A stretch of DNA of 33,529 bases from Candidatus Coatesiibacteriota bacterium (GCA_020348885.1 CP070755.1:34206-67734), one strand, 5' to 3'. Positions 2,718 through 33,529 are shown, counted from the first letter of the stretch. Notes: generated from the letters alone by a model not told the origin. Translations and numbers: made by a program.

Positions 2718-2746
2718 GCAAGTTTCTGAGGCTGTACCTGTCTAAA
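2718..2746 (+). promoter_or_regulatory. Putative ECF-sigma promoter (copy 1)
   Basis: GCAAGTT at 2718-2724, a 16-nt spacer and TCTAAA at 2741-2746. The same two elements, same spacer length and same flank (CGATAAA before, T after) recur at 3703-3731 in front of the anti-sigma gene. The layout resembles RpoE-type promoters (AACTT-like -35, TCTRA-like -10). It lies about 58 bp upstream of the secreted protein gene at 2804. Assignment to the sigma factor at 5426 is inference. Confidence 0.6.
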
Positions 2747-2803
2747 TTATTGTAGTATTCCGGGTGGAAGAATCGGACGCCTCAACGGAAACCGGGAGGG
2801 AAG

Positions 2804-3526
2804 ATGAAGGTAAACCTAGTAGTAGCAATGTTATTGGTACCGCTCGTCGCAGGCGCGCAACCGCCGGGGCCGGACGGGCGAGGATTCCCGGGCGAGGGCC
2901 GCCCCGACAGAGAGAATTTCGACCCGAAAGCCATGATGGACGAACTGATGGCCGAGTCTTACGATGCCCGGGGAAAAGTCGATTACGCTGCAGACCTTCT
3001 ATACCCGGCGTCCGAAACCTTATTCGCTCTGGTTAATGAAGTCACGCCGTTACCGGTACTGTCGGTCGGATGGGATGATATACGTACCGCCCTGGCCGAC
3101 GCGTTCGACAACGAAGAATTGGAAGCTGCGGAAAAAAATTACTTAACCTACCTCGAGGAGTCCGGTAACCGCCGGGAGGCGCTCAACGACGCGTGGAAGG
3201 ATAATGACGAGCGAGAACAGATAATAGGCCGACTGGCCGAATCCCAGGACATACTCGTTTCGGTACGGTATGACGTCGAATCCGCCGTAGAGATAAGTAA
3301 AGGCGCGCGGGACGACTTAAAGGAATCGTCGAAAATGATGGAGGAATTAAAATCCATGGCTTCCAGGATGCCCCCGTCCCCACGCGGGGATTCTCGCGGA
3401 CCGGACGAAGACGATATCAAATCTCTTTCGGTCGAAATAGACGCGATGGACGCGGCGGAGGAAAAAGCCGAAACCCAAATCAAATTCGGTAAGGATCTCC
3501 TGAAAAAACTCGGTAAGATACCATAA
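2804..3526 (+). CDS. Secreted helical protein of unknown function, probable ECF regulon member
   Basis: A 240-residue protein with a clear signal peptide (MKVNLVVAMLLVPLVAGA, cleavage likely near residue 18), then a Pro/Gly/Asp-rich segment (19-43) and a mostly alpha-helical, charged body. The start is fixed by GGGAGGG upstream of the ATG. I do not recognise a family. The Pro/Gly-rich mature N-terminus and the charged helices recall the two Spy-like proteins encoded downstream, but no clear LTxxQ motif is visible. There are no cysteines. The putative ECF promoter at 2718-2746 lies upstream, matching the one before the anti-sigma gene, so it is probably induced together with that operon and acts in the periplasm. 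No terminator was recognised in the 223-bp gap that follows. Confidence 0.8.
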   Translation: MKVNLVVAMLLVPLVAGAQPPGPDGRGFPGEGRPDRENFDPKAMMDELMAESYDARGKVDYAADLLYPASETLFALVNEVTPLPVLSVGWDDIRTALADAFDNEELEAAEKNYLTYLEESGNRREALNDAWKDNDEREQIIGRLAESQDILVSVRYDVESAVEISKGARDDLKESSKMMEELKSMASRMPPSPRGDSRGPDEDDIKSLSVEIDAMDAAEEKAETQIKFGKDLLKKLGKIP

Positions 3527-3702
3527 ACGTCTCCATAGCCGGAATAACGAAGCTAAAGGCGGATTAAAAATAACCCTCCTCTTAAAAAGGCGTCATCGCC
3601 GCCCGTAATCGCTTATCAAAAAGGCGTTCCGGTTCTTTCGGCCCAAAACAAACGTTAGATAATTCCGTTGTCGATTTAATCTTCAATCATCGATAAACGA
3701 CC

Positions 3703-3731
3703 GCAAGTTTTCTGCTATAAGCCGGTCTAAA
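3703..3731 (+). promoter_or_regulatory. Putative ECF-sigma promoter (copy 2), autoregulatory
   Basis: GCAAGTT at 3703-3709, 16-nt spacer, TCTAAA at 3726-3731, matching the copy at 2718-2746. The expected start of transcription (around 3738) would give a leader of only about 12 nt, just enough for the GAAGGGG-type ribosome site before ATG 3750. This geometry supports a real promoter and autoregulation of the operon that ends with the ECF sigma gene. Confidence 0.65.
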
Positions 3732-3749
3732 TAGGTGAAGGGGAAAGTT

Positions 3750-4205
3750 ATGGACTGCATAGACAAGAAGAAGATATCGGCATATCTGGACGGCGAAACG
3801 CCCAAAAGCGAACGGGCGCGAATCGAAAAACACCTCGCGGAGTGTCCCGCGTGCCGGACCGAAGCGAACGAACTTGCGGCCGTATCGGACGCGCTGGACG
3901 TTCTCGAAGGGCTGGAACCGGACGCGTATTTCGCCGCGCGCGTCAAGCGGCTCGCGACGGAGCGAAAACAACACGGTTGGTTCGGCCGCGCCCTCGTACC
4001 GGCTGCGGCTACGGTGGCCGCGGCGGCGTTCTTGCTTCTAGGCGGTTTCATCGGACAAGCGCTACATGCCGCGTACCTCGTCGAACGGTCGGAAGCCGGC
4101 GGCGAATTCGCCGAATACGCCGAAACTTCGGCTATCGAAGACTACCCGGAAGGTACCCTCGGCGAAGTTTTGGACGACTTCCCGCTGAACGGAGGTAACA
4201 TATGA
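3750..4205 (+). CDS. Membrane-anchored zinc-binding anti-sigma factor (zf-HC2 type)
   Basis: A 151-residue protein with the anti-sigma zinc fold at the N-terminus: Cys3, then His28, Cys32 and Cys35 in KHLAECPAC. An alpha-helical linker follows, one transmembrane helix at about 81-105 (Ala/Leu/Gly-rich), and an acidic periplasmic tail of about 45 residues. Proteins of this class hold an ECF sigma factor at the membrane until an envelope signal releases it. The ATG at 3750 has a purine-rich ribosome site and sits just after the ECF-type promoter, so I prefer it to the GTG at 3735. Its stop overlaps the next start (ATGA at 4202-4205), so translation is coupled to the CnrX/Spy-like gene. The cognate sigma factor is the fourth gene of the same operon. 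Confidence 0.85.
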   Translation: MDCIDKKKISAYLDGETPKSERARIEKHLAECPACRTEANELAAVSDALDVLEGLEPDAYFAARVKRLATERKQHGWFGRALVPAAATVAAAAFLLLGGFIGQALHAAYLVERSEAGGEFAEYAETSAIEDYPEGTLGEVLDDFPLNGGNI

Positions 4206-4783
4206 AGGATAAAATACTGATAGGCCTAGTAATCGCTCTGATACTATCCCTGGCGTTAAACGTGGGAACGGTCGGTACGTTCATCTTCCTGGCGGTCGTC
4301 AAAACGGAGGTCCACGGCCCATCCGACGGCCTGGGAGAGAAACTGGAGTTGACGCCCGAACAAAAGGAGAAGTTCAAAGAAAATCGGGAAGATATGAAAG
4401 AACAGGCCGAGCCGATAAGACGTGAACTGGACGAGAAAAGGTCCGAAGTAATAGAGCTTTTAAAAGAACCGGAACCGGATACGGCCAGGCGCGACGAGTT
4501 GTTCAAAGAGATAGCCAGCTTACAGGTCCAACTGGAGATACTCGTGTTCGACCACATGCACGAGACGGCGCAAGTACTGACGCCGGAACAACGCGAGGTT
4601 TTCTTCGAACACCTGGAATGTAAATTCGGACCGGGGCGGGGCCCGTTCGAGCAAAGACACCCCCACTTACGCGGTCACTACGGCGGATTACACGGTCCGC
4701 CGCACGGATACGAAGAAGGTTTGGGCCGCCACGGGCCTCCGCCCGGCTACGAGGGCAAACCCCCGCCCCCCGACACGGAATAG
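4202..4783 (+). CDS. Membrane-anchored Spy/CpxP or CnrX-like (Metal_resist-type) periplasmic sensor
   Basis: A 193-residue protein with an uncleaved-looking N-terminal transmembrane helix (about 5-33) and a periplasmic helical domain. The domain has two LTPEQ motifs (50-54 and 126-130), the hallmark of the Spy/CpxP/heavy-metal-resistance superfamily. Between them is a long charged hairpin, with FDHMHE (His118, His120) just before the second motif, a plausible metal ligand pair. The tail after 142 is Gly/Pro-rich with about six histidines. It overlaps the anti-sigma gene by 4 nt. The topology and gene neighbours match CnrX of the CnrYXH nickel/cobalt system, where a membrane-tethered sensor works with an anti-sigma factor on an ECF sigma factor. 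Role as a sensor is inference; metal specificity cannot be read from sequence. Confidence 0.75.
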   Translation: MKDKILIGLVIALILSLALNVGTVGTFIFLAVVKTEVHGPSDGLGEKLELTPEQKEKFKENREDMKEQAEPIRRELDEKRSEVIELLKEPEPDTARRDELFKEIASLQVQLEILVFDHMHETAQVLTPEQREVFFEHLECKFGPGRGPFEQRHPHLRGHYGGLHGPPHGYEEGLGRHGPPPGYEGKPPPPDTE

Positions 4784-4833
4784 AAACGGGTTCGACAACA
4801 ATGGAAATATCTTACGGAAAGGAGTTATGGATT

Positions 4834-5352
4834 ATGGCGGTATTAAAAAAGGCGATCTATTTGTTCCTCATATCGGTCGTCGCGGTAACGATCAGTTCGT
4901 GGGCATTCGGAGGCGGACCCGGCGGCGGGCTACCGACTGACGGACAGAAAGGGCCGAAAGGGCTCTTCGGAATCTTGGACGAGGACCAGCGGGAAACCGT
5001 CAAAGCGATGCTGGAAGAGAACCGCGAAGAAATGGAAGGTCTTCGGGAGGAAATGGATAGCCTACGCGCGGAGTTACACGAACTGATTAAATCCGAAGCC
5101 GGCGCGACGACCCTGGATGCCAAAATCGAGGAAATCGGCGCGCTTCATACCGAGATGATGAAGAATCAGGTGAACCTACGCGTCGAGATCCGCAAGCTGC
5201 TTACCGAAGAACAGAAGGCCCAACTCGACGAGATGGAAGCAGAAATGGGCACCGGCGGGCGCATGGGCGGCCCCGATAAAGGACTAAAGCACGGCAAAGG
5301 CGGGCGCGGACCGGGCGCCGGTTGGCCTCCGCCGGAGGATCTGAGCGAATAA
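4834..5352 (+). CDS. Secreted Spy/CpxP-like periplasmic protein
   Basis: A 172-residue protein with a signal peptide (1-25, ending near SSWAFG), a Gly-rich mature start and a helical hairpin typical of Spy/CpxP. It has a first motif LDEDQRETVKAML (48-60), a Glu-rich coil (61-120) and a second motif LLTEEQKAQLD (122-132). The C-terminus is Gly/Pro/Lys-rich. Spy proteins are periplasmic chaperones and CpxP is a stress-sensor accessory. The ATG at 4834 is chosen because AAGGAG lies 9 nt upstream and it begins a normal signal peptide; ATG 4801 would add 11 residues without a ribosome site. It differs from the preceding gene in being released rather than membrane-tethered and in lacking the His-rich tail. 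It is probably co-expressed with the sigma factor. Confidence 0.8.
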   Translation: MAVLKKAIYLFLISVVAVTISSWAFGGGPGGGLPTDGQKGPKGLFGILDEDQRETVKAMLEENREEMEGLREEMDSLRAELHELIKSEAGATTLDAKIEEIGALHTEMMKNQVNLRVEIRKLLTEEQKAQLDEMEAEMGTGGRMGGPDKGLKHGKGGRGPGAGWPPPEDLSE

Positions 5353-5370
5353 CGGCGATACGACACGCGA

Positions 5371-5397
5371 CGGGCGGCCCCTTAGCGGGGCTGCCCG
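5371..5397 (+). promoter_or_regulatory. GC-rich hairpin between the Spy-like gene and the sigma gene
   Basis: An 11-bp inverted repeat (CGGGCGGCCCC / GGGGCTGCCCG, one G-U pair) with a 5-nt loop. No T-run follows, so it is not a standard terminator. It could be a processing or attenuation element that lowers expression of the sigma gene relative to the upstream genes. Confidence 0.45.
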
Positions 5398-5425
5398 CGT
5401 AAATACGGTATAACGAAACGGCGAC

Positions 5426-5998
5426 GTGGCCAAGTCTACCGACAAAGCAGGGTCGGAACCGAATGACGCGGACCTTATCGCAGCCACCGCGAACGGCGAC
5501 GCTGACGCGTTCGAAACCCTCATAAGGAAGTACGAACGGCGGGTGTTGAGCACGGCGTTCCGTTACCTCGGCGAAACCACCGCCGCCGAGAACGCGGCCC
5601 AGGAGATTTTCTTGAAAGTGTGGCGCAATGCGAAGCGTTTCCGCGGAAAGTCCTCGTTCTCGACATGGCTCTATCGGATCGCCGTCAACCACTGCATTAA
5701 CGCGAAGGCTAAACGCCGGAAAACCGTACCTATTAGCGAAGCCATCGGCGAAGAAGGTCCGAACGTAGAAGAACGGTACGAAAAGGAGAGAACGATTCGG
5801 GCCGTAAGGGAGGCGGTAGACGGCTTACCCACTAAACAAAGGATGGCGTTGGTACTATCGAAGTTCGACGGGCGTTCTTACAAAGAAATAGCCGAGGTAA
5901 TGGGCGTGTCGCTGTCATCTATCGAGGCGCTGATTTACAGGGCCAAACGAAACCTGAGAAGAAAGCTGGCGCCGTTAACGGAAAGAAACGCCTTATAA
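5426..5998 (+). CDS. ECF-family RNA polymerase sigma factor (RpoE-like)
   Basis: A 190-residue sigma-70 family protein with region 2 at about 22-92 (DADAFETLIRKYERRVLSTA, AENAAQEIFLKVWRN, FSTWLYRIAVNHCINAKAKR) and region 4 at about 125-180 (LPTKQRMALVLSKFDGRSYKEI, GVSLSSIEALIYRAKRNLR). No region 3 is present, as in all ECF factors. It begins with GTG and has no strong ribosome site, which, with the upstream hairpin at 5371-5397, suggests low expression. It lies fourth after the anti-sigma and two Spy-like genes. The probable targets in this window are the two matching promoters at 2718 and 3703. A strong terminator follows. Confidence 0.93.
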   Translation: MAKSTDKAGSEPNDADLIAATANGDADAFETLIRKYERRVLSTAFRYLGETTAAENAAQEIFLKVWRNAKRFRGKSSFSTWLYRIAVNHCINAKAKRRKTVPISEAIGEEGPNVEERYEKERTIRAVREAVDGLPTKQRMALVLSKFDGRSYKEIAEVMGVSLSSIEALIYRAKRNLRRKLAPLTERNAL

Positions 5999-11493: not shown

Positions 11494-14400
11494 TTGGATT
11501 GCCCGAACTGCCGCACAACCAACCCTGAAGGCGCGAAGTACTGCGTCCACTGCGGGACGCCGTTAACCGTCGGACTACGCCGCGGCGTCGGGACGAGGGA
11601 AGTAACCTGTCTATCAATCTACGTTAAAGGCTTCGGTAAACTTGAAGGTTTAATTCCGCGCTTAAAAATATCCGAACTGCGGGAAGTCTACCTCGAAACG
11701 ATAGACCGGAACGTAACGTATTTCGGCGGGACCGTTGTTAAACGTTATGGAGCAGGGGCCGACGCCGTTTTCGGCGCGCCGATTACTTGGGAACGCGATA
11801 CGGAACTGGCAGTACTCGCCGCGATAGCCATTAAGGACGATACCGCCGACTTCTCCGACAAGGTATTAAGCGAGTACGGCGTAACCTTAACTACGCGTTG
11901 CGGGATCGACGTCGGGTTGATTACGTACGAAAACGTTCCCGGCGAAAGTACGTTAACCGCGGCGGGACCAACCCTCGAGTACGCGGCGAGGTTAAGAAAC
12001 GCCGCCCGCCCCAACGGAATATTAGTCAGCCATAGCGCTTACGACTTCGTAAGGAACTACTTCGTATTTCGGCCATACGTATTTACGGGCTCCGACGCGG
12101 TCGAAACGCCCGTAACCTCGTACGTCGTTCAACGGCGTAAACCGACCGGCGTTCCTATCCAAATGTTGGCTCGCGGTCCCTTCGTATCCCGTGAAAACGA
12201 GCTAACCCGGTTGACCTCGGTTATCGAAACAGGTACTTCCGAACGAGCCTCGGCGACCCTCGTATTAGGTGAACCGGGTATGGGCAAAACACGTGTCGTG
12301 GTCGAAGCGATTAATAAAGCCGGGTTCGGTAACGTCTTTTGGACCCGTTACCTCCCGAGGTCTAACTTCCTACCATACCTCCCCTATCGTCAATTCCTCA
12401 CGGACCTCTTCGACGCAAAACCGGGAAAAGAACTACTGGAAAGGATCAGGGAGTTTTTCGCGGAGAAAGACAACGCACTCGTTCGGTACTTACCCCTCCT
12501 GGGTTTAATATTCGACCGCGATTTCGGCCGCATCCCCGACGAAGAGGCTATCCCGGAGGACGATAAACGAGGTCTGTTGTACGACTTGGTTTTCAAAATC
12601 GCCGAAGCGGCCGCGGCGGAACGTCCGTTCGTACTGGTCCTCGAAAACGTCCATTGGGCCGACCCGGCTTCAATGGACCTGACAAGGTTTCTATTGCATA
12701 GGTTCAAGAACGAAAATTTGCCTGTCGCCGTAATAATCACGAGCCGCGAAACCGGACACTCGAAAGGGATATCGTACGACGACGTAATATACTTAAAGCC
12801 GCTTAACGCCATTGAAATCGCGGCCATAGGCCGTCGTATTATTCACGAAGACCGATGGGACGAACAGGTAAAGGATGAGATTATCAAACTGGCCCAAGGG
12901 AACCCTATTTACGCCGAGGAATTCGCGCGGGCAATAGCGATTAAACGGCCGGGCGAAAAAACGGTGATACCGCCCGTCGTCAGGATAGGCATTCAGGCGC
13001 GCCTGGACCGGTTATCCGACGAATCGTTATCGTTGATTAAGCTAGCCACGTGCGTCGGCGAGTCTTTTCCGGTAAACCTACTCAACGAACTTTCCGGGCT
13101 CGCACCGGCGGATTACTTCGGAGCGCTGTACGAGTTGTTACAGGAAAAACTGATTTATATTAAAGAAGATAAGGTCCGAATAAAGTCAACTATTACTAGC
13201 GAAATTATTGAACAAGAACTCTTAGAGGGTTACAAAACGCAAATACACGGTGATATCGCTGAAAACTATCGCGCCCGAGGAGGCGACCCATTAATAGTGG
13301 CGCGCCATCTGGTCTCCGCCGGTCGTAAAACTGAAGCCGGTCGATTCCTGATCGAATCCGGCGACGACGCCGGGAAAAACGTACGTTACGACGACGCACT
13401 TCGTTACTACCTCGCGGCCATTGACCTTTTAGGCGGGAAAAAAACGGCGGACGACGGGCAAGAAGACGTAATACGAAAGACCGTAACTATTTACGTCGAG
13501 CTCGGTAGGATAGAAAAGGCACTCGAGTTACTGAAACGCGAATTCGAACGCTCTACGACGGCGGAGTCTAAAGCCGGTTATTTATCTCTGGTCGGGAACG
13601 TGTATAAAGCCGCCGGTCGCCCGGAGACGGCTCTCGAGTACTTGAGCGACGCTGAAGCGCTTTACAAACGACTAGGCGACGAAAAACAGGCGGTCGAAAG
13701 AGGCGTAGATAAAGGGTTCTGTTACTTCAAGCTTAATCGGTTGAACGAAGCCGAAGCTTATGCGAAGGCGAACCTAGATAAACTTGCCGAAACGGACGAC
13801 GTCCAAAACAAAGTTTCATCGTATTATCTATTGGCATTGGTTTCTTTCGAGCGCGGCGACACGAACGGAGCCGTCGATTATGTAAACAAAGCGTATGAGA
13901 TGTGGGATAAGTTAGGCAACACTCAAGGCTGTATAAGTACGTATAACCTGGTGGGCCTGGCGTTGCAAGACCGGGGTAAGATAACCAACGCCGAAACTTA
14001 TTTTAAGAAGAGCGTCGAACTCGCTGAAACGCTGGAAGCCCCGAGAGCGTACTCGGCCGTGGTAGGTAATTACGCTCACTTATTAACGTGCGCCGGCAAG
14101 ATTAGAGAAGCCATTAAACTGCTTACGGTGAAAGCGCTGCCGCTCGCACGCGAAGTGGACTACAAAGACGTGTTGGGCGCCGCGAACAGCGTTCTAAGTT
14201 TCGCATATTTCGCCGCCGGGGAGTTCATACGGGCGGAGGAAACCGGATGCGAAGCCCTCGGTTACGCCGAGGAGATAGGATCGCCCGAACGTATCCTCAA
14301 ATCGTTACGGCGGGTTTATACGGCGAAACTGGGAGCCGGCGCGACGGACGTTACACCGGAAATCGAAAAGTTAGAAAACCTCGGCGCGACCTGGACGTCA

Positions 14401-14820
14401 CGCCCCAACGCTATAGCCCGGGCTTTATGGGAAATTCGAGCCCGGCTAGCTTTGAATACCGGCGACAGGGCGCGAGCCGGGGAGTTACTCGAAACGGTCG
14501 AAACCGTACCTTCCGACGGACGGGACGTGTTGGGCAACTATGAAAAAAGAATACTAACGGGGGAACTGTACGAGTTTCTAGCGAACGCCGAAGCCGCCGA
14601 AGCGGACTATTCGTACGTATATAACGACTCGCGCGGAAACGGCGCGTTCTACTACGCCGGTACGGCCGCTTACGGGCTTGTAAGATTATCCTTAAAATCT
14701 GGCGATAAAGAAGCCGCGGAAAAGTACTTAACGACTCTCGAATCCACCTTCGGCGGCCAGAACCTAGAATATTGGGAAGACGTTATACGGTCGCTTAAAG
14801 ATGAGTTAAATACGGCCTGA
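11494..14820 (+). CDS. Zinc-ribbon / degenerate class III cyclase / AAA-STAND ATPase / TPR signalling protein
   Basis: A 1108-residue protein. Residues 3-20 form a zinc ribbon (CPNC...CVHC). Residues 34-190 are a class III nucleotide-cyclase homology domain. The ATPase part has Walker A GEPGMGKT (259-266) and a VLVLENVHWAD Walker-B-like segment, where family members usually have ED and here EN is seen. From about 600 to the end are tandem TPR-like helical repeats. In the cyclase part both metal-binding aspartates are absent: the position of the first reads IYVKGF, and the GDAVMAVFG segment is GAGADAVFG. The IGDAVNLAARL segment is AGPTLEYAARL, and so lacks its Asp and Asn. The domain is therefore likely non-catalytic and may serve as a ligand-binding or oligomerisation part. 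The start is TTG with GGGAGGGG upstream. The architecture is common for cytosolic regulators; the target is unknown. Confidence 0.85.
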   Translation: MDCPNCRTTNPEGAKYCVHCGTPLTVGLRRGVGTREVTCLSIYVKGFGKLEGLIPRLKISELREVYLETIDRNVTYFGGTVVKRYGAGADAVFGAPITWERDTELAVLAAIAIKDDTADFSDKVLSEYGVTLTTRCGIDVGLITYENVPGESTLTAAGPTLEYAARLRNAARPNGILVSHSAYDFVRNYFVFRPYVFTGSDAVETPVTSYVVQRRKPTGVPIQMLARGPFVSRENELTRLTSVIETGTSERASATLVLGEPGMGKTRVVVEAINKAGFGNVFWTRYLPRSNFLPYLPYRQFLTDLFDAKPGKELLERIREFFAEKDNALVRYLPLLGLIFDRDFGRIPDEEAIPEDDKRGLLYDLVFKIAEAAAAERPFVLVLENVHWADPASMDLTRFLLHRFKNENLPVAVIITSRETGHSKGISYDDVIYLKPLNAIEIAAIGRRIIHEDRWDEQVKDEIIKLAQGNPIYAEEFARAIAIKRPGEKTVIPPVVRIGIQARLDRLSDESLSLIKLATCVGESFPVNLLNELSGLAPADYFGALYELLQEKLIYIKEDKVRIKSTITSEIIEQELLEGYKTQIHGDIAENYRARGGDPLIVARHLVSAGRKTEAGRFLIESGDDAGKNVRYDDALRYYLAAIDLLGGKKTADDGQEDVIRKTVTIYVELGRIEKALELLKREFERSTTAESKAGYLSLVGNVYKAAGRPETALEYLSDAEALYKRLGDEKQAVERGVDKGFCYFKLNRLNEAEAYAKANLDKLAETDDVQNKVSSYYLLALVSFERGDTNGAVDYVNKAYEMWDKLGNTQGCISTYNLVGLALQDRGKITNAETYFKKSVELAETLEAPRAYSAVVGNYAHLLTCAGKIREAIKLLTVKALPLAREVDYKDVLGAANSVLSFAYFAAGEFIRAEETGCEALGYAEEIGSPERILKSLRRVYTAKLGAGATDVTPEIEKLENLGATWTSRPNAIARALWEIRARLALNTGDRARAGELLETVETVPSDGRDVLGNYEKRILTGELYEFLANAEAAEADYSYVYNDSRGNGAFYYAGTAAYGLVRLSLKSGDKEAAEKYLTTLESTFGGQNLEYWEDVIRSLKDELNTA

Positions 14821-17270: not shown

Positions 17271-19742
17271 TCACCCATTAGTTTCATCTTCCGCCGCTTT
17301 CTTCTTCGCCTTCCCTTTTCCGCCGCCCGCCTTCTCGAATACCAATCGCTCGTCGTCCGCTTCAGCTTGTACCGTATCTCCCGGCCCGAACTCGCCCGAA
17401 AGGATTTTATTCGCGACCGGATTCGCCAGCATCCGGGTTATAACGCGTCTCAGCGGCCGCGCGCCGAAGGCCGGGTCGTAGCCGGTCTCGGCCAACAGTT
17501 CCCGCGCGGCGTCCGTCAGCTCCAGCTTGATGTCCTGGTCCGCAAGCCGTGCTTCCACCTTCGCGACCAACAAATCTACTATCTTGAGCAGGTCGTCACG
17601 GGTCAGCGCGTGGAAGACGATAACCTCGTCGATACGGTTCAGGAACTCGGGCCGGAACGAGTAGCGAAGTTCCTCCGTCGACGCAGCCTTCATCTTCTCG
17701 TATAACTCGTCCGGGCTATCCACGTCGGCCCGCTCGCTCAGCGTCATAATCCGGTCGGCGGCGATGTTCGACGTCATTATTATTATCGTGTTCCGGAAGT
17801 CCACAGTCTTCCCGTGGCTATCGGTCAGTCGCCCGTCATCCAGCATCTGGAGGAGGATGTTGAAGACGTCGGGATGGGCTTTCTCTATTTCGTCCAGCAG
17901 GACCACCGAGTAAGGGCGCCGGCGGATCGCCTCGGTTAGCTGGCCGCCCTCGTCGTATCCCACGTACCCGGGCGGCGCGCCCACCAACCGGCTCACCGTA
18001 TGCCGTTCCTGGTACTCGGACATGTCTATACGAACGATAGCCTCCTCGTCGCCGTAGAGGAATTCGGCAAGAGCCTTCGCGAGTTCGGTCTTACCCACGC
18101 CCGTCGGGCCGAGGAAGATGAACGACCCTATCGGTTGGTTCGGGTCCTTCAAACCGGCCCGGGCCGAACGGACCGCCTGGCTCACCGCGTCCACCGCGAT
18201 GTCCTGCCCGACGATGCGTTTGTGTAGCTCGTCCTCCATCCGCATCAGCTTCGCCTGTTCCTCCTCGGTCAATTCCGAGACCGGAATCCCCGTCCACTTG
18301 CTGACCACCTCGGCGATGTCCTCGGCGGTAACGACCGTGGAAATCTCCTGCTCCTTCTTTTCCGCCTCCCATTTCTCCTTGGCTTCGTCCAGCTTGGCTT
18401 TGAGTTCAAGGTATTCGACGTGGAGTTTGTTGGCAGTCTCGAAGTCGTTGGCCGCGATGGCTTCCTCCTTCTCCCGTTCGAGCCGGGCGACCTCGGCCTG
18501 GGTATCTTGCAAGTCCGGCGGAACCAGCAGGTTCGAGAGGTGCACCCGCGCCGACGCCTCGTCGATTAAATCTATCGCCTTGTCGGGAAGGAACCGGTCG
18601 GCGATGTATCGGGCGGACAGCCTGGCCGCCGCGTCTATCGCCTCGTCGGAGATGGTAACTTTGTGGTGAGCCTGGTAGTTCTCGCGTAGCCCTTTCAGTA
18701 TCTCTATCGTCTCCTCGACGGTCGGTTCGTCCACCATAACCGGCTGGAAGCGCCGCTCCAGCGCCGCGTCTTTCTCGACGTACTTGCGGTACTCGTCCAG
18801 GGTTGTGGCGCCGACGGCCTGGAGGTCGCCGCGGGCCAGCGCCGGTTTCAGGATGTTCGCCGCGTCCACGGACCCTTCGGCCGCGCCGGCGCCCACCAGC
18901 GTATGCATCTCGTCTATGAAGAGGATGTAGTCGCCCGATTCGATTATCTCATCGATAACGTTCTTGAGCCGCTCCTCGAACTCGACGCGGAACTTGGTCC
19001 CGTCGACCAGCCCGCACATGTCGAGGGCCACAACTTGCATGCCGATTAACAGCTCCGGCACGCCCCGGTCCACTATCTTCTGGGCCCGCCCTTCGACTAT
19101 GGCGGTCTTGCCGACGCCCGGGTCGCCGAGTCGCACAGGCTTGTTCTTCGTCCGCCGGGAGCGTATCTGGATGACGCGCTCGATTTCGTCTTCCCGGCCG
19201 ATGACCGGGTCGAGTTTGCCCTTTTCGGCCAACTCGGTCAGGTTCCGGCTGAAGGTCTCGACGGCCGGGGCCTCGGCGTCGGCGGGGGCGCCGTACTTGC
19301 CGGTTTCCTTGCGGCCAAGTAGCTCGAAGACCTTGGCGCGTATCACCTTCGGGTCGGCGCCCTGGCCGACGAGGGCCCGGTACGCGGTCCCGGATGTCTC
19401 GGTGAGGAGCCCTATCAATAAATGCTCGGAGCCGACCTCCTCGGCGTTCATCTCCTGGGCCGCGTCCACCGCGTACCGTATCGCGTTCTTGGCCTTTGGG
19501 CTGAACTCGATTACGGCGCCGGCGGCGCCGGGCTTGGCGGCAGTCATCGTCTTGACCGCGGCGTAAAGTTTGTCGAAGGAAAGGGCCGACTGCTCCAGCG
19601 CTCGCGCCGCGATAGAGCCACGGTCACGGGAAAGCCCAAGTAGGATGTGCTCGGTCCCGATGTTCGCAGAACCGAACTCCCGGGCGAACTCCTGGGCGCT
19701 TCGAATCGCCTCCTGCGCTCGGTTCGAGAAGTATTCTTCCAT
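17271..19742 (-). CDS. clpC: ClpC-type AAA+ protease ATPase subunit
   Basis: An 823-residue protein. It has two Clp N repeats (1-145), D1 AAA+ (Walker A GDPGVGKT 206-213, Walker B ILFIDE 273-278), a short middle region with a UVR-like motif (419-455), D2 AAA+ (GPTGVGKT 545-552, [15 protein letters not shown]) and a C-terminal D2-small domain. The short middle region separates ClpC from ClpB. It unfolds proteins for a ClpP-type protease. Odd points lie in D1 around the nucleotide site. The usual NNPVLIG reads NKPVRLG, EGLAQ reads EGRAQ, and the pore-loop region AGTKYRGEF reads [10 protein letters not shown]2 looks ordinary. The Lys/Gly/Glu tail (805-823) is family-variable. It is the last gene of a five-gene minus-strand proteostasis cluster; no mcsA/mcsB or ctsR lies next to it. 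Confidence 0.93.
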
Positions 19743-19805
19743 TTATATCACCGATAGTGTATCTTTATAGATTCACATTTACGCCACTACGTACAGAGTC
19801 CACGT

Positions 19806-20246
19806 CTATGGCGTAGATACGGCACCACTTATATTAACAACCATCGGCGCGATATAGATTATAAAGAGGACGGCTGAAATCGCGATTAGTAAATAATGCA
19901 AGTACGGCTTTTTGCCCTTATTTCCCGATTTAGACGGTTCGAAATAAACCACTTGCCATAACGAACGCCACAACCAGAAAAAGGCGTAAGACGCGGTTAA
20001 CGCGGCCCCGAGACCGGCGCCGCTGCTGAGTTCGCCAGCGTAGGCCAGCGATATCAGCCCGAAAATGACGAAGAACAAGATTAGGGCGAAGTTTACAGTA
20101 TAGTATATCTTGCTATTCCGGACGGAGACCTTCGCGAAATCGGATTTACAGTCGAACAGCCGGTAGAATAAGAGGTGAAAAACGGCGAATAACAGCGAGA
20201 TTACCCCGCCTGCGGCGATTCCTAATTTCAGTATATTTATAATCAC
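19806..20246 (-). CDS. Small membrane protein of unknown function
   Basis: A 146-residue protein with four likely membrane helices (about 8-28, 48-70, 78-100, 118-140), joined by a basic cytosolic loop containing SVRNSKIYY and a KSGNKGKK loop before the last helix. I do not recognise the family. It begins with GTG at 20246, 19 nt after the dnaJ stop, behind a G-rich stretch, and clpC starts 63 nt downstream. Its position inside the grpE-dnaJ-clpC cluster suggests co-expression with chaperones, but the sequence gives no role. Confidence 0.8.
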   Translation of the reverse strand: MIINILKLGIAAGGVISLLFAVFHLLFYRLFDCKSDFAKVSVRNSKIYYTVNFALILFFVIFGLISLAYAGELSSGAGLGAALTASYAFFWLWRSLWQVVYFEPSKSGNKGKKPYLHYLLIAISAVLFIIYIAPMVVNISGAVSTP

Positions 20247-20265
20247 GCCCGCCGCCCGCCTGTTC

Positions 20266-21402
20266 CTATTCCTCCCACCCCATCGATTTCGAGTACTCCT
20301 CGAAGAGTTTCTTCTGTTCCTTGTTCATCTTCTTGGGTATCTCGACCTCGATTTCGACGTAATGGTCGCCGACGCGCCCCGTCCGTTCGTCCTTTATCCC
20401 TTTCTTCTTGACGCGTATCTTCTTCCCGGACGACGTACCGGCCGGTATCTTTACCTTGACTTTCCCCTGGGTCGTTTCCACCACTTTGCTCGCGCCGCTA
20501 AGGGCCTCGGACAGGTTGAGTTTCAACGTCGACGTAGTGTCCAGTCCTTCCCGTTCGTACCTGTCGGAACCTTTTACGTGGACAGTGATAATCAGGTCGC
20601 CCCGGGCGCCGTACGGGCCGATGTTGCCCTCACCACGGACGCGTATCTTCCCGCCGTCGGATATGCCGGCGGGGATACGGACGCGAATCTTCCGCTTCCC
20701 CGGTTTCGTCCCGGTTCCGCCGCAGTCCGGGCAGGGTTCCTCGACCACCTTACCCCGGCCCGCGCAAGTCGGGCACGCCCGCTTCACGCCGAACTGACCC
20801 AGGCCGACGGTTACGGTCCCCTCGCCGCCGCACTGGGGGCACGGCTTCGTGCTTGTCCCCGCTTTCGCGCCGGAACCGGCGCACGCCAGACACGGCTCAC
20901 CCCGCTTAAGGTTGATTACCGCCGTGCCGCCTTTCGCGGCTGTCTTGAACGGGACGTCTATGTCCATGAAGACGTTGCCGGAGCCGCGGGTGTCTTCTTC
21001 CCTAGGCCGGCCCGCGCCGCCGCCGAAAATCATATCGAAGAGATCGCCGACGCCGCCGATGCCGCCCAGGTCGCCGAGGTCGAAATGGAAGGTCTGGGAT
21101 TGACCCGGTTGAGTGTACTGCGAGAAGTCGAAACCGCCGAACCCGCCGGGGCCGCCAGCGCCGCCGGGCGCGCCGGCGAACGCCCCGTACTTGCGGAGCA
21201 TATCGTACTCGGACCGTTTCTTGCCGTCCGAGAGCACCGAATAGGCTTCGTTCACCGCTTTGAATCGCTCGGCGGCGGCCGGGTCCGGGTTACGGTCAGG
21301 GTGGAGCTCCATCGCAAGTTTGCGGTAAGCCTTCGCGATTTCGTCCTTGCTGGCGTTCTCGCCTACGCCCAGTATCTCGTAGAAGTCCTTATTATCGGCC
21401 AT
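20266..21402 (-). CDS. dnaJ: Chaperone DnaJ (Hsp40, type I)
   Basis: A 378-residue type I J-protein. The J domain is at 5-70 with HPD at 34-36, followed by a Gly/Phe-rich linker (75-130). The zinc-binding domain (171-232) has four CxxCxGxG-type repeats ([32 protein letters not shown]), and then come the two C-terminal substrate-binding domains. It stimulates DnaK ATPase and delivers unfolded proteins. The ATG directly follows the TAA of the preceding gene (TAAATG), so translation is coupled. dnaK itself is not in this window; the gene is separated from grpE by one unknown exported protein. Confidence 0.96.
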
Positions 21403-22035
21403 TTATTCCCGTTCGTTCTTTATTTGCCCTGTATTTAAAACGCCCGGCGGGTAAAAGGCGGAATACGGAAACTCGACCTCCGACGCGGCCAAAACGACGG
21501 CCGTCGGTCTGCCCGGGTCCACGAAGTACGGCACGTCCAGGGTTATAGTCTCGCCGGAACCGACCGGGACCGGCTCGAACGCTACGGCGCCTTTATAAAA
21601 AACCGCGTCCCAACCGCCGTCAGGGTATAGCGGCCGCGGCATCACGCGGTCATAGGTCTCGTCGCCGGTTCGCAGGTTAAACGCGGAATCGGTCATAATT
21701 AAAGCGTGAGCGGTACTCATCGCGACCGGATCGAAGTAAACGACCGCGTACGGTTCCGAGAGATAAACGGGCCTATCAGTTCCGGGGACGTTAACCAGAT
21801 ATTCGCCGTCGCCCGCGTCTTCGACGGGTAACGGCGTCGCCCGGACGCGGCCCACTTCAACCTCGCCGGTTAAACCGCCGTAGAAGACGAGTTCCCGGGA
21901 CGCGTCGGCGGTCCGCGCGGCGGCGGTTGCGGCCTCGAGCTCGGTTGCCGGTTCAACCGGTTCCGTAAGCGTCCCGACGAGGACCGACGCTACGGCGATA
22001 CATAACGATACGGCGAATACTAGCACCCAGGCCAT
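21403..22035 (-). CDS. Exported or membrane-anchored protein of unknown function between grpE and dnaJ
   Basis: A 210-residue protein with one N-terminal hydrophobic segment (MAWVLVFAVSLCIAVASVLV), a signal anchor or signal peptide, then an Ala/Glu-rich linker and a beta-rich body with regularly spaced hydrophobics. The ATG at 22035 is chosen because AGGAGGGG lies 8 nt upstream; the frame is open further, into grpE, but that is not used. There is one Cys, in the membrane segment. No family recognised. Its stop touches the dnaJ start, and grpE ends 32 nt upstream, so it is embedded in the chaperone operon. An exported protein in a grpE-dnaJ operon is unusual. Confidence 0.82.
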   Translation of the reverse strand: MAWVLVFAVSLCIAVASVLVGTLTEPVEPATELEAATAAARTADASRELVFYGGLTGEVEVGRVRATPLPVEDAGDGEYLVNVPGTDRPVYLSEPYAVVYFDPVAMSTAHALIMTDSAFNLRTGDETYDRVMPRPLYPDGGWDAVFYKGAVAFEPVPVGSGETITLDVPYFVDPGRPTAVVLAASEVEFPYSAFYPPGVLNTGQIKNERE

Positions 22036-22067
22036 TCGTGCGACCCCTCCTACGCCCGTTCTTCGGT

Positions 22068-22640
22068 TTAATCGCCGGGGCCCGGTTCCTCCTCGAGGCA
22101 AACCATTACCTTAACCGGAACGAGCAGGCGCCCCTTGAACGTATAACCGGGTTCTAAAACCTTAATAATCGTGTTCGGTTCGAAATCCGGAGTGCACTCG
22201 CCCATCACCGCGTCGTGAACCGTCGGGTCGAAGGGAGTTCCGGGGCCGGCTTCGATGGGTTCGAGACCCTCGGCCCTCAGCACGTCGAAGACCTTCCGGT
22301 CAAGCATCCTTATCGCGTCGACGTGGTGTTGGGGCACGGCAGGGTCGGCGTCAGTTTCGTCAATCGCCCTGGTCAAGTCCGCGAGCGCCGGGAGTATCTG
22401 TTTGATTACCCTCTCCGCCGCCCGCTCCCGGATTTCTGCTTCTTCACGGGCGACCCGCTTCCGCATATTATCCAGGTCTGCGGCTTTCCGCAGGTACTCT
22501 TCGCGGGCCTTTTCGGCTTCGGCCCGCGCGGCTTCAGCCTCGGCTCGGGCAGCCGCGAGTTCTTCCTCCAACTCTGCTAACTTTACTTCCAGCTTTTCTA
22601 CTTTTTTATCGCGGAAATCTACTCTTATCTTATCGGCCAT
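22068..22640 (-). CDS. grpE: Nucleotide exchange factor GrpE
   Basis: A 190-residue GrpE. A long N-terminal coiled coil (about 10-65, Glu/Ala/Arg-rich) leads to YLRKAADLDNMRKRVAREE, followed by the ILPALADLTRAID segment and the C-terminal beta domain (FDPTVHDAV, EPGYTFKGRLLVPVKVMV). It releases ADP from DnaK. The start is ATG 22640 with GAGGA upstream; an open extension to 22802 is rejected because it adds a non-homologous, basic, poorly conserved-looking segment overlapping the promoter. First gene of the minus-strand cluster. Confidence 0.94.
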   Translation of the reverse strand: MADKIRVDFRDKKVEKLEVKLAELEEELAAARAEAEAARAEAEKAREEYLRKAADLDNMRKRVAREEAEIRERAAERVIKQILPALADLTRAIDETDADPAVPQHHVDAIRMLDRKVFDVLRAEGLEPIEAGPGTPFDPTVHDAVMGECTPDFEPNTIIKVLEPGYTFKGRLLVPVKVMVCLEEEPGPGD

Positions 22641-22749
22641 AGTTCCTCGTATATCTTTCCTTTTTATCTCGTTATAAGTCCACCCGACCGCCGGCGTTGC
22701 CACGGTAGCGCGTTCTACCGAAAATGGCCGTGGGCACAATTGAGCCGAA

Positions 22750-22761
22750 CGTACTAGTACG
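22750..22761. promoter_or_regulatory. 12-bp palindrome in the grpE leader
   Basis: CGTACTAGTACG, a perfect palindrome just downstream of the putative grpE -10 box. It could be an operator, but such short palindromes occur by chance. No CIRCE element (TTAGCACTC-N9-GAGTGCTAA) was found in the 327-bp gap between grpE and the divergent gene. Confidence 0.2.
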
Positions 22762-22773
22762 AACGAACGGGTT

Positions 22774-22802
22774 ATTATAACGAAAGTTTTCGGGGAACGC
22801 AA
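22774..22802 (-). promoter_or_regulatory. Putative promoter of the grpE operon
   Basis: On the minus strand TTGCGT (22802-22797), 17-nt spacer and a perfect TATAAT (22779-22774). It would give a leader of about 130 nt before the grpE ATG, which contains the palindrome at 22750-22761. Confidence 0.5.
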
Positions 22803-29857: not shown

Positions 29858-32800
29858 CTACTCCCCTTCCCCTTCTATCTCTATCTCCGGTACTTCGGCG
29901 GGTTGGAGCGGTACTTCGATCTGCCCGGCTTCGCCCGGGTCCTCGTCGTAGGGCGTAGCCCGGAAGAAAATACGACTGCCCTCGAAGACCGTCGGGACGT
30001 CGGCCATACGCTTCCACGTTATTGTACCGGAGCCGCGGACGCCACTCGCCCCCGAAACCGTCGCCGGGTACCAGGTAGCGCCGCCGTCCTCGGAGTACTC
30101 GCAATCCAGGTCCACCGTATCGTTCTCCGGGTCGTTCACCGTGTACGAAACCGTTATATCGCCGGTAGTCGCGTCCTCGGTATAAGACGCAAGGGATACG
30201 CGCGGCGGTTCGTTCAGGTCCACGAGGAACGACGAGTTCTCCGCCGGCTCACCCGGGCCCGAATCCTTCGCCGTTATCCGGAAAACGATATCGCCCGAAT
30301 AACCGGCGCCCAGGTCCGCCGCGGCCCGCCAGTCGGCAGTACCGAAGTATGCAGACGGCGTAATCGAAGCCGTGTTGCCGGACATCGTCGCGGTCCGCCA
30401 CGTGCTCCCGCCGTCGGTGGAGTACTCGCATATCAAGCTGACGGTATCGCCCTCGTTGTCCATTATAGAGTAGTCTATCGGTATCGTATCGCTTTCTTGT
30501 TCCCCGATTACGTCGGCGACGAAGACCTCCGGCGGGAAGTTCGTATCCACCGTGAACGTACCAGAAACGCCGGGTGTCCCCTCCTCGAAGTCGTACGGCA
30601 CGATACGGAAGACCACGTTCGACAACTCCTCGCCCGGTATGTCGGCGCCCGTCGCCCACGTCAAGCTGCCGTCGTAAAACGAGGGCCCTAGGTCCGAAAG
30701 GACGCCGAAAGCCGTAGCCGGTTTCCAGGTGGCGCCGCCGTCGGTCGAATACTCGGCGACGATACTTACGGCGTCGCCTTCATCGTCGGCCAAGTGATAG
30801 CGAACCTCGACCTCGCCGGCTTCAACGGCTCCCAGTGGTTCCACCGACGCCGTCGGCGGATGGTTATTATCGACCCGGAATGGGAGCGTAAACACCGTCT
30901 CGCCGGTATCGTTGTCGGCGGGCGTTACGCGAATGACCGCGTCGGCCAGGTCGAGTCCAGCCCCGTCGGTGGTCGCGCGCCAGACGAAACCGCCGGACCC
31001 GGGACGCAGTCCAGAAGTGGAACCGTCCACCGTCGCGGGCGCGAACGTAAATCCGCCGTCGGCGCTATACTCTACAGTCAAGTTCACGGGATCGGCCTCG
31101 TCGTCCGAAAGCCGGTATCTAATCTCAACGTCACCGGTCGTGTCAGCCACCGCCGGTTCGACCTCTACCGCCGGCGGGCGGTTCGTATCGACGTTTATCG
31201 CCGTCAGCGTATCGCCGGTTCCGGTATCTTTATCGGCCGGCGTTATCCTGAACTGGACCGCGCCCGTATCGACGGAGCCCAAGTCGCGCTTCGCGTCCCA
31301 TATCACGGTGTTTGAGTACGCTAGGCTGGAGATGTTCGACGTATCGCCCGTAACCGACGCGGTCCGCCAGGTGGCGCCGCCGTCTGGCGAGTACTCGACC
31401 GTTACCGACAGAACATCACCTTCAACGTCGTCCAGGTCGTAGTCTATGATTATCTCGTCGCCTTGCTCGCCCTCCAACGGTTGTATCGCCACCGCCGGCG
31501 GGTCGTTCACGTCCACGCGGAACGCGGGCGATACGCCCGATTCGCCTTCGTCCTCGTCCGCCGGCGAGATGCGGAATTGTATATCGCTGGAGTCGGTCCC
31601 GCCGATATCGGCGCGGGCGTCCCATTGCAAGCTACCGCCGTAGCCGACCGAAGATACATTCGATACGGCGCCGGATACCGTAGCGGTTTCCCAGGTTATA
31701 CCGCCGTCGATGGAGTACTCGCAGTTCAAATCAACCGCGTCGCCCTCGGCATCGCTTATCGTATAAGCCACCGATACGGTATCGCGCCCGATTTCGGCGG
31801 GCCCGCGCACCGTTATCGTCGGCGGGTCGTTCACGTCCACGTGGAACGGCGCCGTCGTTCCGGCGGAACCGGTATCTTTATCTGACGCCGTTACGCGGAC
31901 GAGCGCGTCGCCGGTGTCGGTGCCTTTTATATCGCGGTCCGCCAACCACTTAACGGTACCCAGATAACCGCTCGCGCCGATTCCGGTCGTCGTCCCGGAC
32001 AGGGTCGGCTCGTGCCAGGTGGAACCTCCGTCGAGAGAGTACTCGACCGCGATATCGACGTTGTCCGACTCCGTGTCACTCAGGTTATAGTCAATAGTAA
32101 CTTCGCCCGTCTGCTCCTCGTAAATGTTCGCCACGGAGACCATCGGCGGGTCGTTGTTATCCACGTGCATAACCGTAGTAACCGCCGCTTCGCCGGGGTC
32201 GTTGTCGTACGGCGTTACCCGGACCATAACGTTATCGCTGTCCACGCCCGCCACGTCGGCGAAGGACGACCACGTAAACGAACCGCGGTAATCGGCCTGT
32301 GATATAACCGACGTCGGGCCGGTTACCGTCGCTTCGTTCCAGTTAGAACCGCCGTCGGTCGAGAACTCTACCGACAGGTCCACGTCGTTGCCGTCGGTAT
32401 CCGATATGTCGTACGTAAACTCAACGTCGCCCGACAACTCGCCGGTAACGCTCGATAGATTTACGGACGGCGGTTCGTTATTGTCCAGATGGAACGGGCC
32501 CGTTGTATCGCTCAAGCCCTCGTCGTTATCGAGGGGCGTTACCCGGAACCTGACGTCGGTACGGTCCACGGAAGGTTCGTCCCGGTCGGACGCCCAGATT
32601 ATCGTACCCGAGTACCGCGTCGGGTCGATTTCCGTCCGGGTCGCGACCGTCGCTTCCTTCCACGTGAAGCCGTCGTCGGTGGAGTATTCGACCGCTATTG
32701 CGGTGGCGTCGCTCTCCGGGTCTTCCAGACGATACGTGATTTCGACGTTGCCGGTCTGTTTCCCGGTCGGCGTATCCACCGAAATGGTCGACAACTCGTT

Positions 32801-33529
32801 ATTGTCGAGATGGAAGTTGGCCGTCCGCCCCGACGCGCCTTCGTCGTTGTCGTAAGGCGTTATCCGGAACGCGATATCGGTCTGGTCAGTCCCGCCCAGA
32901 TCGGTATCGGAACGCCAGACCAGACTTCCGAGGTAACCGGAACTGTAGATGTCCTCGATTACGCCGTCAACGGCCGCCGGCCACCACGTCGAACCGCCGT
33001 CTTCGGAGAACTCGGGTATGACGTTCAATACGTCGTTCTCAGGGTCGTAAAGCGTATAATCGATGATGATATCGCCCGATTGTTCGCCTTCCAGGTCGAC
33101 CACGTCGATCGTCGGCGGTTCCGAGTTATCTACGTGTATGGGCGGCGAATCGCCGGGTTCGCCCACGTCGTAATCGGCGGCCGTTACGCGGAAAAGAATA
33201 TCCTCTTTATCGACCCCCGGAACGTCCTCACCGGACGACCACGATATAGAATGGGAGCCGGGAATTAAACCCTCCGCGCGCCCCTCGACCGTCGCGGGAA
33301 TCCACGTATGCCCGCCGTCCTCGGAGAACTCGCACGCGATGGCGACGGCGTCGCCCTCGTCATCGAGAATCGTAAACGGTACCGGTATAATTCCCGTCTG
33401 TTCGCCGCCCAGCGACGCGACGTTCACCGAAGGCGGGTTGTTGTTGTCCACAGTGAAGTCCGACGTACTGCCCGGTGTCCCCTCGTCGTTGTCCGACGGG
33501 ATAACGCGGAACCGGGCGTCCTCAACGTG
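29858..33529 (-). CDS. Giant tandem-repeat surface protein (Asp-box-bearing beta-sandwich repeats), 5' end outside the window
   Basis: The frame stays open from the stop at 29858 to the window edge at 33529; the GTG at 33451 is only an internal valine codon of a further repeat. The visible part (about 1220 residues) contains at least eleven complete repeats of about 105-110 residues plus a partial one. Each starts near VDNNxPPxVxV, carries a GEQTG-like segment and a YSTDGGATWxxATV Asp-box motif (S-x-D-x-G-x-T-W), then a W-containing strand and a DVxFRVTPxDNDEG-type acidic turn. The repeats are all different, so they are old. The C-terminus is short, acidic (EIEIEGEGE) and has no sorting domain or membrane segment. 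Likely a secreted or surface-attached adhesin or fibre; the ligand is unknown. Confidence 0.85.
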   Translation of the reverse strand, partial: HVEDARFRVIPSDNDEGTPGSTSDFTVDNNNPPSVNVASLGGEQTGIIPVPFTILDDEGDAVAIACEFSEDGGHTWIPATVEGRAEGLIPGSHSISWSSGEDVPGVDKEDILFRVTAADYDVGEPGDSPPIHVDNSEPPTIDVVDLEGEQSGDIIIDYTLYDPENDVLNVIPEFSEDGGSTWWPAAVDGVIEDIYSSGYLGSLVWRSDTDLGGTDQTDIAFRITPYDNDEGASGRTANFHLDNNELSTISVDTPTGKQTGNVEITYRLEDPESDATAIAVEYSTDDGFTWKEATVATRTEIDPTRYSGTIIWASDRDEPSVDRTDVRFRVTPLDNDEGLSDTTGPFHLDNNEPPSVNLSSVTGELSGDVEFTYDISDTDGNDVDLSVEFSTDGGSNWNEATVTGPTSVISQADYRGSFTWSSFADVAGVDSDNVMVRVTPYDNDPGEAAVTTVMHVDNNDPPMVSVANIYEEQTGEVTIDYNLSDTESDNVDIAVEYSLDGGSTWHEPTLSGTTTGIGASGYLGTVKWLADRDIKGTDTGDALVRVTASDKDTGSAGTTAPFHVDVNDPPTITVRGPAEIGRDTVSVAYTISDAEGDAVDLNCEYSIDGGITWETATVSGAVSNVSSVGYGGSLQWDARADIGGTDSSDIQFRISPADEDEGESGVSPAFRVDVNDPPAVAIQPLEGEQGDEIIIDYDLDDVEGDVLSVTVEYSPDGGATWRTASVTGDTSNISSLAYSNTVIWDAKRDLGSVDTGAVQFRITPADKDTGTGDTLTAINVDTNRPPAVEVEPAVADTTGDVEIRYRLSDDEADPVNLTVEYSADGGFTFAPATVDGSTSGLRPGSGGFVWRATTDGAGLDLADAVIRVTPADNDTGETVFTLPFRVDNNHPPTASVEPLGAVEAGEVEVRYHLADDEGDAVSIVAEYSTDGGATWKPATAFGVLSDLGPSFYDGSLTWATGADIPGEELSNVVFRIVPYDFEEGTPGVSGTFTVDTNFPPEVFVADVIGEQESDTIPIDYSIMDNEGDTVSLICEYSTDGGSTWRTATMSGNTASITPSAYFGTADWRAAADLGAGYSGDIVFRITAKDSGPGEPAENSSFLVDLNEPPRVSLASYTEDATTGDITVSYTVNDPENDTVDLDCEYSEDGGATWYPATVSGASGVRGSGTITWKRMADVPTVFEGSRIFFRATPYDEDPGEAGQIEVPLQPAEVPEIEIEGEGE
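29930..33529 (-). repeat. Protein-level tandem repeat array (about 320 bp per unit)
   Basis: About eleven full repeats and one partial one, positioned by the recurring VD-N-PP start motif and the STDGGSTW-like Asp-box. DNA identity between units is moderate and codon choice varies, so they are not recent duplications; the array is coding and not a CRISPR or satellite. Confidence 0.8.

Follow-up and report, generated by a model that had tools for sequence, protein, structure and literature searches.

Organization of the locus

The window analyzed here is a 33,529-nucleotide stretch of a Candidatus Coatesiibacteriota genome (GCA_020348885.1 CP070755.1:34206-67734). Four of its plus-strand genes encode, in this order, a zf-HC2 anti-sigma factor, a transmembrane (TM)-anchored Spy/CnrX-type protein (called the tethered sensor below, after its proposed role), a secreted Spy-like protein, and an ECF sigma factor (Table 1). 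A sequence-only reading of the window had put forward these parts in this order, and all of them were recovered on the plus strand as open reading frames with Pfam/NCBIfam domains. Pfam matches were strong for the anti-sigma factor (zf-HC2, 3.7e-13), the tethered sensor (Metal_resist, 9.3e-18; LTXXQ, 1.1e-11; scores of 65 and 45.8 bits versus curated cutoffs of 29.2 and 24.3), the secreted Spy-like protein (Metal_resist, 3.3e-11), and the sigma factor (Sigma70_r2, 3.5e-20). With Sigma70 regions 2 and 4 in the one protein and an Hx3Cx2C motif plus a TM helix in the other, the sigma and anti-sigma factors have the features of a class I zinc anti-sigma pair. No Rfam RNA was found in the region.

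Two gene starts probably differ from those listed. The anti-sigma gene probably begins at ATG 3750 rather than 3735, because the -10 element of the promoter before it ends at 3731; a conserved protein start (MxCI...) lies at this ATG, and relatives have the same tight leader. For the secreted Spy-like protein, the start is probably 4834, not 4801.

Table 1. Features of the locus, numbered from the first nucleotide of the window
Feature	Position	Strand	Remark
ECF-type promoter 1, GCAAGTT-N16-TCTAAA, before orphan gene	2718..2746	+	only one further site in the genome
Orphan secreted helical protein, 240 aa, putative second target	2804..3526	+	open reading frame
ECF-type promoter 2, putatively autoregulatory, before anti-sigma gene	3703..3731	+	identical and in the same position in three order relatives
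zf-HC2 class I anti-sigma factor, one TM helix	3750..4205	+	likely start 3750, not 3735
PxG[ST][LIV]G tail motif of anti-sigma factor (IEDYPEGTLGE), periplasmic, proposed sensor-docking peptide	4134..4166	+	conserved
TM-anchored Spy/CnrX-fold sensor (Metal_resist/LTXXQ)	4202..4783	+	Pfam, profile, predicted structure
Secreted Spy-like protein	4834..5352 (ORF listed from 4801)	+	Metal_resist/LTXXQ
Strong GC hairpin between Spy-like and sigma genes	5367..5400	+	
ECF sigma factor	5426..5998	+	Sigma70 r2 and r4

A promoter pair unique in the genome

Both copies of the promoter element that had been read from the sequence, GCAAGTT-N16-TCTAAA, were present, and a genome-wide search showed that the element is not randomly scattered: exact matches to GCAAGTTT-N14-GTCTAAA in the genome (2,599,261 bp) numbered two, one before the sigma operon and one before the orphan gene. 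Identity between the two sites extends to 19 bases, ACCGCAAGTTT-N14-GTCTAAAT, and this form matched only these two places even when up to 3 mismatches were allowed (reversed-pattern control, 1), as did the 15-base form with up to 2 mismatches (controls, 1 and 3). The bare 13-mer at 3 mismatches was at chance level within the window, and therefore weaker sites are not judgeable. A promoter shared by the operon and the orphan gene supports the earlier proposal of autoregulation and of a second target promoter.

The orphan product is a helical protein with a signal peptide that had no Pfam, NCBIfam, or PDB-sequence match and no homologue in 60 other genomes. Its single-sequence model was a helical bundle (mean pLDDT, 69), for which Foldseek returned generic helical bundles only, with poor rmsd. 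We regard the gene as a candidate effector on the strength of its promoter.

Conservation and proposed target replacement within the order

The layout was compared with that of G001, G002, and G003, which represent a different family of the order, and with that of G004, from the same genus as these. The order anti-sigma, tethered sensor, secreted Spy-like protein, ECF sigma was kept in G001, G002, and G003, the G002 contig ending inside the sensor gene, and a perfect promoter stood directly before the anti-sigma gene in all three. About 4.4 kb upstream, the motif recurred, without a mismatch in G001 and G002 and with a single one in G003. In these three genomes this second copy precedes a tolC-macA-ABC ATPase-macB operon (OEP, HlyD_D23, ABC_tran, and MacB_PCD/FtsX by Pfam) that ends right before the sigma operon. 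The slot held by this pump in the order relatives is filled by the orphan gene in the window genome, where no pump was found under the ECF motif and where MacB homologues elsewhere (about 42% identical or less) were without it. One such region of the window genome (L092, 5492-8083, minus strand) carries a tandem pair of MacB-like permeases with no ECF motif nearby.

G004 kept the pump, its MacB being 91% identical to that of G002, and had neither the sigma operon nor the motif there. This amounts to a single event of co-loss, suggestive rather than statistical. G003 had a third perfect copy of the motif, 94 nt before a gene for a secreted 392-aa orphan (contig C67, L061 229-1407, minus strand) that was found in G003 only and would be a second lineage-specific secreted target; no convincing link between it and the orphan of the window genome was found.

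Promoter and pump linkage outside the phylum

A profile of the tethered sensor was compared with 386 diverse genomes, lineages being counted as different families outside the phylum of the window genome. It matched 180 of them, with many of the matches being plain Spy-like proteins; the better-matching loci usually comprised an ECF gene, a zf-HC2 anti-sigma gene, a tethered sensor gene, and often a second Spy-like gene. With the promoter consensus fixed from the order of the window genome and expectations taken from dinucleotide shuffles, 18 of 43 upstream regions of sigma or anti-sigma genes outside the phylum carried the promoter with no more than 3 mismatches (0.5 expected), and 11 of the 43 carried it with no more than 2 (0.05 expected). 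A position-matrix version with simple shuffles agreed. Searched genome-wide in 15 genomes, the exact motif gave 17 sites versus 1 in the control, most of them at sensor operons or a linked pump; one, in G340, precedes a separate, stand-alone gene for a secreted Spy-like protein. The enrichment and the genome-wide sites together indicate that promoter specificity and regulon logic are conserved well beyond the phylum. Another G340 site (C41:200244) was rejected as a target, as it apparently lies inside purF on the opposite strand and is probably due to chance. In G014, an exact motif (contig C50:13955; L179 1501-1590) stands about 60 nt before a gene for a 4Fe-4S polyferredoxin-like membrane protein, a possible extra target.

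Pump linkage was assessed at the 26 loci where an ECF or anti-sigma gene was present and the downstream sequence exceeded 3 kb, a pump being scored when at least 2 of tolC, macA, ATPase, and macB followed in the same orientation within 6 kb. A pump followed at 9 of the 26, often 10 to 50 nt after the sensor gene, and 17 had no downstream pump. Sensor loci without an ECF gene had no pump (0 of 6), a difference that was not significant with so small a control set (Fisher, p = 0.11).

Anti-sigma tail and proposed feedback layout

Across lineages, the periplasmic C terminus of the anti-sigma factor ends in a motif exemplified by EDYPEGTLGE, DDIPEGSLGE, and DDLPSGSLGE, and the P and G were invariant in that alignment. 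Among zf-HC2 proteins sampled from 16 genomes, the motif was present in 7 of 12 encoded beside a sensor and in 0 of 16 encoded elsewhere (p = 7e-4), the counts having been read off a table with the pattern P.G[ST][LIV][GS], which was itself defined on overlapping proteins. Some anti-sigma factors adjacent to a sensor are thus without the motif. We infer from this co-occurrence that the tail may dock on the Spy cradle of the sensor.

The position of the sigma gene relative to the promoter varied. In the order of the window genome it comes last, behind a strong hairpin (z = -2.4); hairpins occupy the corresponding position in G001 and G003, with an extended -10-like TGTTATAAT after them, and after the hairpin in the window there is just a weak -10-like GTATAAC. 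Several other lineages have the ECF promoter placed between the sigma and anti-sigma genes, from where it drives the anti-sigma and sensor genes, not the sigma gene; in others it lies upstream of the sigma gene. Because a hairpin precedes the sigma gene here and, in other lineages, the ECF promoter lies downstream of that gene, the sigma factor is probably supplied largely from a housekeeping promoter, and the auto-promoter would mainly raise the negative regulators.

Fold of the tethered sensor

In the predicted structure of the tethered sensor, a TM helix was accompanied by a three-helix core modeled with confidence (pLDDT of 90-97 in blocks from residue 51 to 140). Its best matches among solved folds were ZraP, CpxP, NccX, Spy, and CnrX, with Foldseek E-values of about 0.003 to 0.2; values of that weak size are expected for short helical proteins. 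By sequence profile, Spy (1.9e-8) and ZraP (4e-7) came ahead of NccX (7e-4) and CnrX (0.16 to 0.7). The kinship with Spy and CnrX that had been proposed from the sequence thus holds, with the profile lying nearer Spy and ZraP, and the locus is well described as a complete ECF circuit that encodes both a membrane-tethered protein of this fold and a soluble Spy paralogue. Proteins with the Spy fold can bind metal, as does ZraP, or unfolded protein, as does Spy.

Proposed mechanism and alternatives

We consider it probable that the module is an autoregulated ECF switch of the CpxP/Spy type for envelope stress, most likely stress in periplasmic proteins. In the unstressed cell, the single-TM zf-HC2 anti-sigma factor would hold the sigma factor, and the tethered sensor would sit on the PxG[ST][LIV]G tail and stabilize this holding state. 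Misfolded protein, or some other hydrophobic ligand, would fill the Spy cradle and release the tail, upon which the anti-sigma factor would let go or be degraded; the freed sigma factor would then transcribe the GCAAGTTT-N14-GTCTAAA promoters. Output from the operon (anti-sigma factor, sensor, and soluble Spy-like protein) would provide negative feedback plus chaperone capacity, and the further output would be a defense gene unit, TolC-MacAB in the relatives and the orphan secreted protein in the window genome. For such a signal, the closest functional precedent is CpxP, an LTxxQ inhibitor that is relieved by unfolded protein (PMC2912261). A wider formulation, which we put forward tentatively and with somewhat more doubt than belief, is that of a widespread, undescribed class of ECF switch with three components: a tethered Spy-type chaperone would monitor the quality of envelope protein by holding the conserved anti-sigma tail peptide, one promoter (GCAAGTTT-N14-GTCTAA) would serve distant lineages, and an ancestral MacAB-TolC output would have had its slot refilled by a lineage-specific secreted protein here.

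The frequent linkage to TolC-MacA-ATPase-MacB, together with the promoter common to pump and sigma operon in the order relatives, would also fit a dedicated drug or toxin response, with the Spy-like sensor binding a pump substrate (an antimicrobial peptide, lipid, or small amphiphile). We think this rather unlikely: the window genome has no pump under the promoter, and the soluble Spy paralogue, often co-encoded and a separate target in G340, points to protein stress. It is also conceivable, if on balance doubtful, that ordinary regulated proteolysis disposes of the anti-sigma factor and that both Spy-like proteins are downstream chaperones and not sensors. Single-TM anti-sigma factors are often cleaved (e.g., RseA and RsiW), and stress responses commonly have Spy-like proteins among their outputs; against this stand the conservation across lineages of the sensor's TM tether and operon position and the occurrence of the anti-sigma tail motif only beside a sensor. 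Very improbable, in our judgment, is the explanation that the duplicated promoter is a recent, functionless copy before an unrelated gene. That the orphan is without a homologue would suit it, yet both hexamers are intact although flanks and spacers differ between the two sites, and a paired upstream target promoter recurs in three relatives.

The sequence-only reading had proposed a CnrYXH-like sensor of metal or misfolding. In the metal version, the sigma factor would be freed once the tethered protein bound metal, and metal defense would be induced. The Pfam Metal_resist match, the presence of CnrX and NccX among the fold matches, the shared cnrYXH order of anti-sigma, sensor, and sigma, and the FDHMHE motif and His-rich tail of this copy all speak for it. 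Its two sequence signatures do exist in this sensor but are not conserved: relatives have FENMCE or FENMRE in place of FDHMHE and do not, as a rule, retain the His-rich tail. In an alignment with authentic CnrX, whose ligands we take to be H42, H46, E63, H119, and M123, H119 alone had a counterpart, His118 of FDHMHE, a position occupied by Asn in each of the three order relatives; H42, H46, E63, and M123 were absent. The ligand set is thus represented by 1 of 5 residues here and by none in the order relatives, the sequence profile is nearer Spy and ZraP, and the pump found in linkage belongs to the MacAB-type ABC exporters and not to the metal RND pumps. CnrY, moreover, is a class II type anti-sigma factor (PMC7406223). 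It belongs to PF17524, and that of the window is a class I zf-HC2 protein with Hx3Cx2C. With a different anti-sigma class and the ligand set missing, the circuit is like CnrYXH in outline and layout, by convergence, and is not a member of that system; metal sensing is probably the wrong assignment, and we rate it as distinctly unlikely.

Relation to known systems

The likeness to CnrYXH (with CnrCBAT) of Cupriavidus metallidurans lies in the order of anti-sigma factor, tethered Spy-fold sensor, and ECF sigma factor and, in relatives of the window genome, in an efflux operon next door. In contrast to that system, the present one has a zf-HC2 class I anti-sigma factor, no CnrX ligand set, an extra soluble Spy-like gene, and an ABC MacAB pump (in the relatives) in place of the RND pump CnrCBA; the sigma factor is 27% identical to CnrH. 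With CpxP, Spy, and ZraP (the LTXXQ/Metal_resist superfamily) it shares the fold and the LTxxQ motifs, and CpxP sets the precedent for a periplasmic inhibitor that misfolded protein titrates away, whereas here the protein is membrane tethered and paired with an ECF/anti-sigma module, not with a histidine kinase. ECF/zf-HC2 class I pairs of the RsiW, RsrA, and ChrR type have in common with it the ECF sigma factor and the Hx3Cx2C anti-sigma factor, but here a third, Spy-fold component and the PxG[ST][LIV]G tail are added. In the available part of one account, an Azospirillum brasilense operon is given as rpoE8, a hypothetical protein, and a periplasmic heavy metal sensor, and appears there as uncharacterized, with no mention of a promoter or a linked pump; it likewise joins an ECF factor and an annotated sensor of this kind in one operon (PMC12826043).

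A literature search found no description of the module, and work on ECF reclassification may already list the association. What appears to be new here, with prior notice possible, is the conserved promoter, the MacAB-TolC linkage, the anti-sigma tail motif, and the feedback layout. To our knowledge, most ECF groups have no known signal. The module offers three connected parts, namely, a promoter specificity that holds across lineages, a sensor with a known chaperone fold, and, as its possible docking partner, a short anti-sigma peptide, and makes answerable the question of whether a Spy-type chaperone can be the direct receptor of an ECF switch. If so, the name "heavy-metal sensor," inherited from CnrX, would be misleading for these proteins.

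Other genes of the window also stood out. By eye, a chaperone cluster (ClpB/ClpC-like ATPase, DnaJ-like, and GrpE-like genes) occupies 17271-22802 on the minus strand, in the same window as the stress circuit. The translation of 11494-14820 (plus strand), likewise read by eye, is a 1,108-aa protein with an apparent zinc-ribbon, nucleotide-cyclase-like, AAA ATPase, and TPR architecture, and 29858-33451 (minus strand) encodes a 1,197-aa protein with many tandem repeats of about 100 residues (DNNEPPSVxV... type), likely a cell-surface repeat protein.
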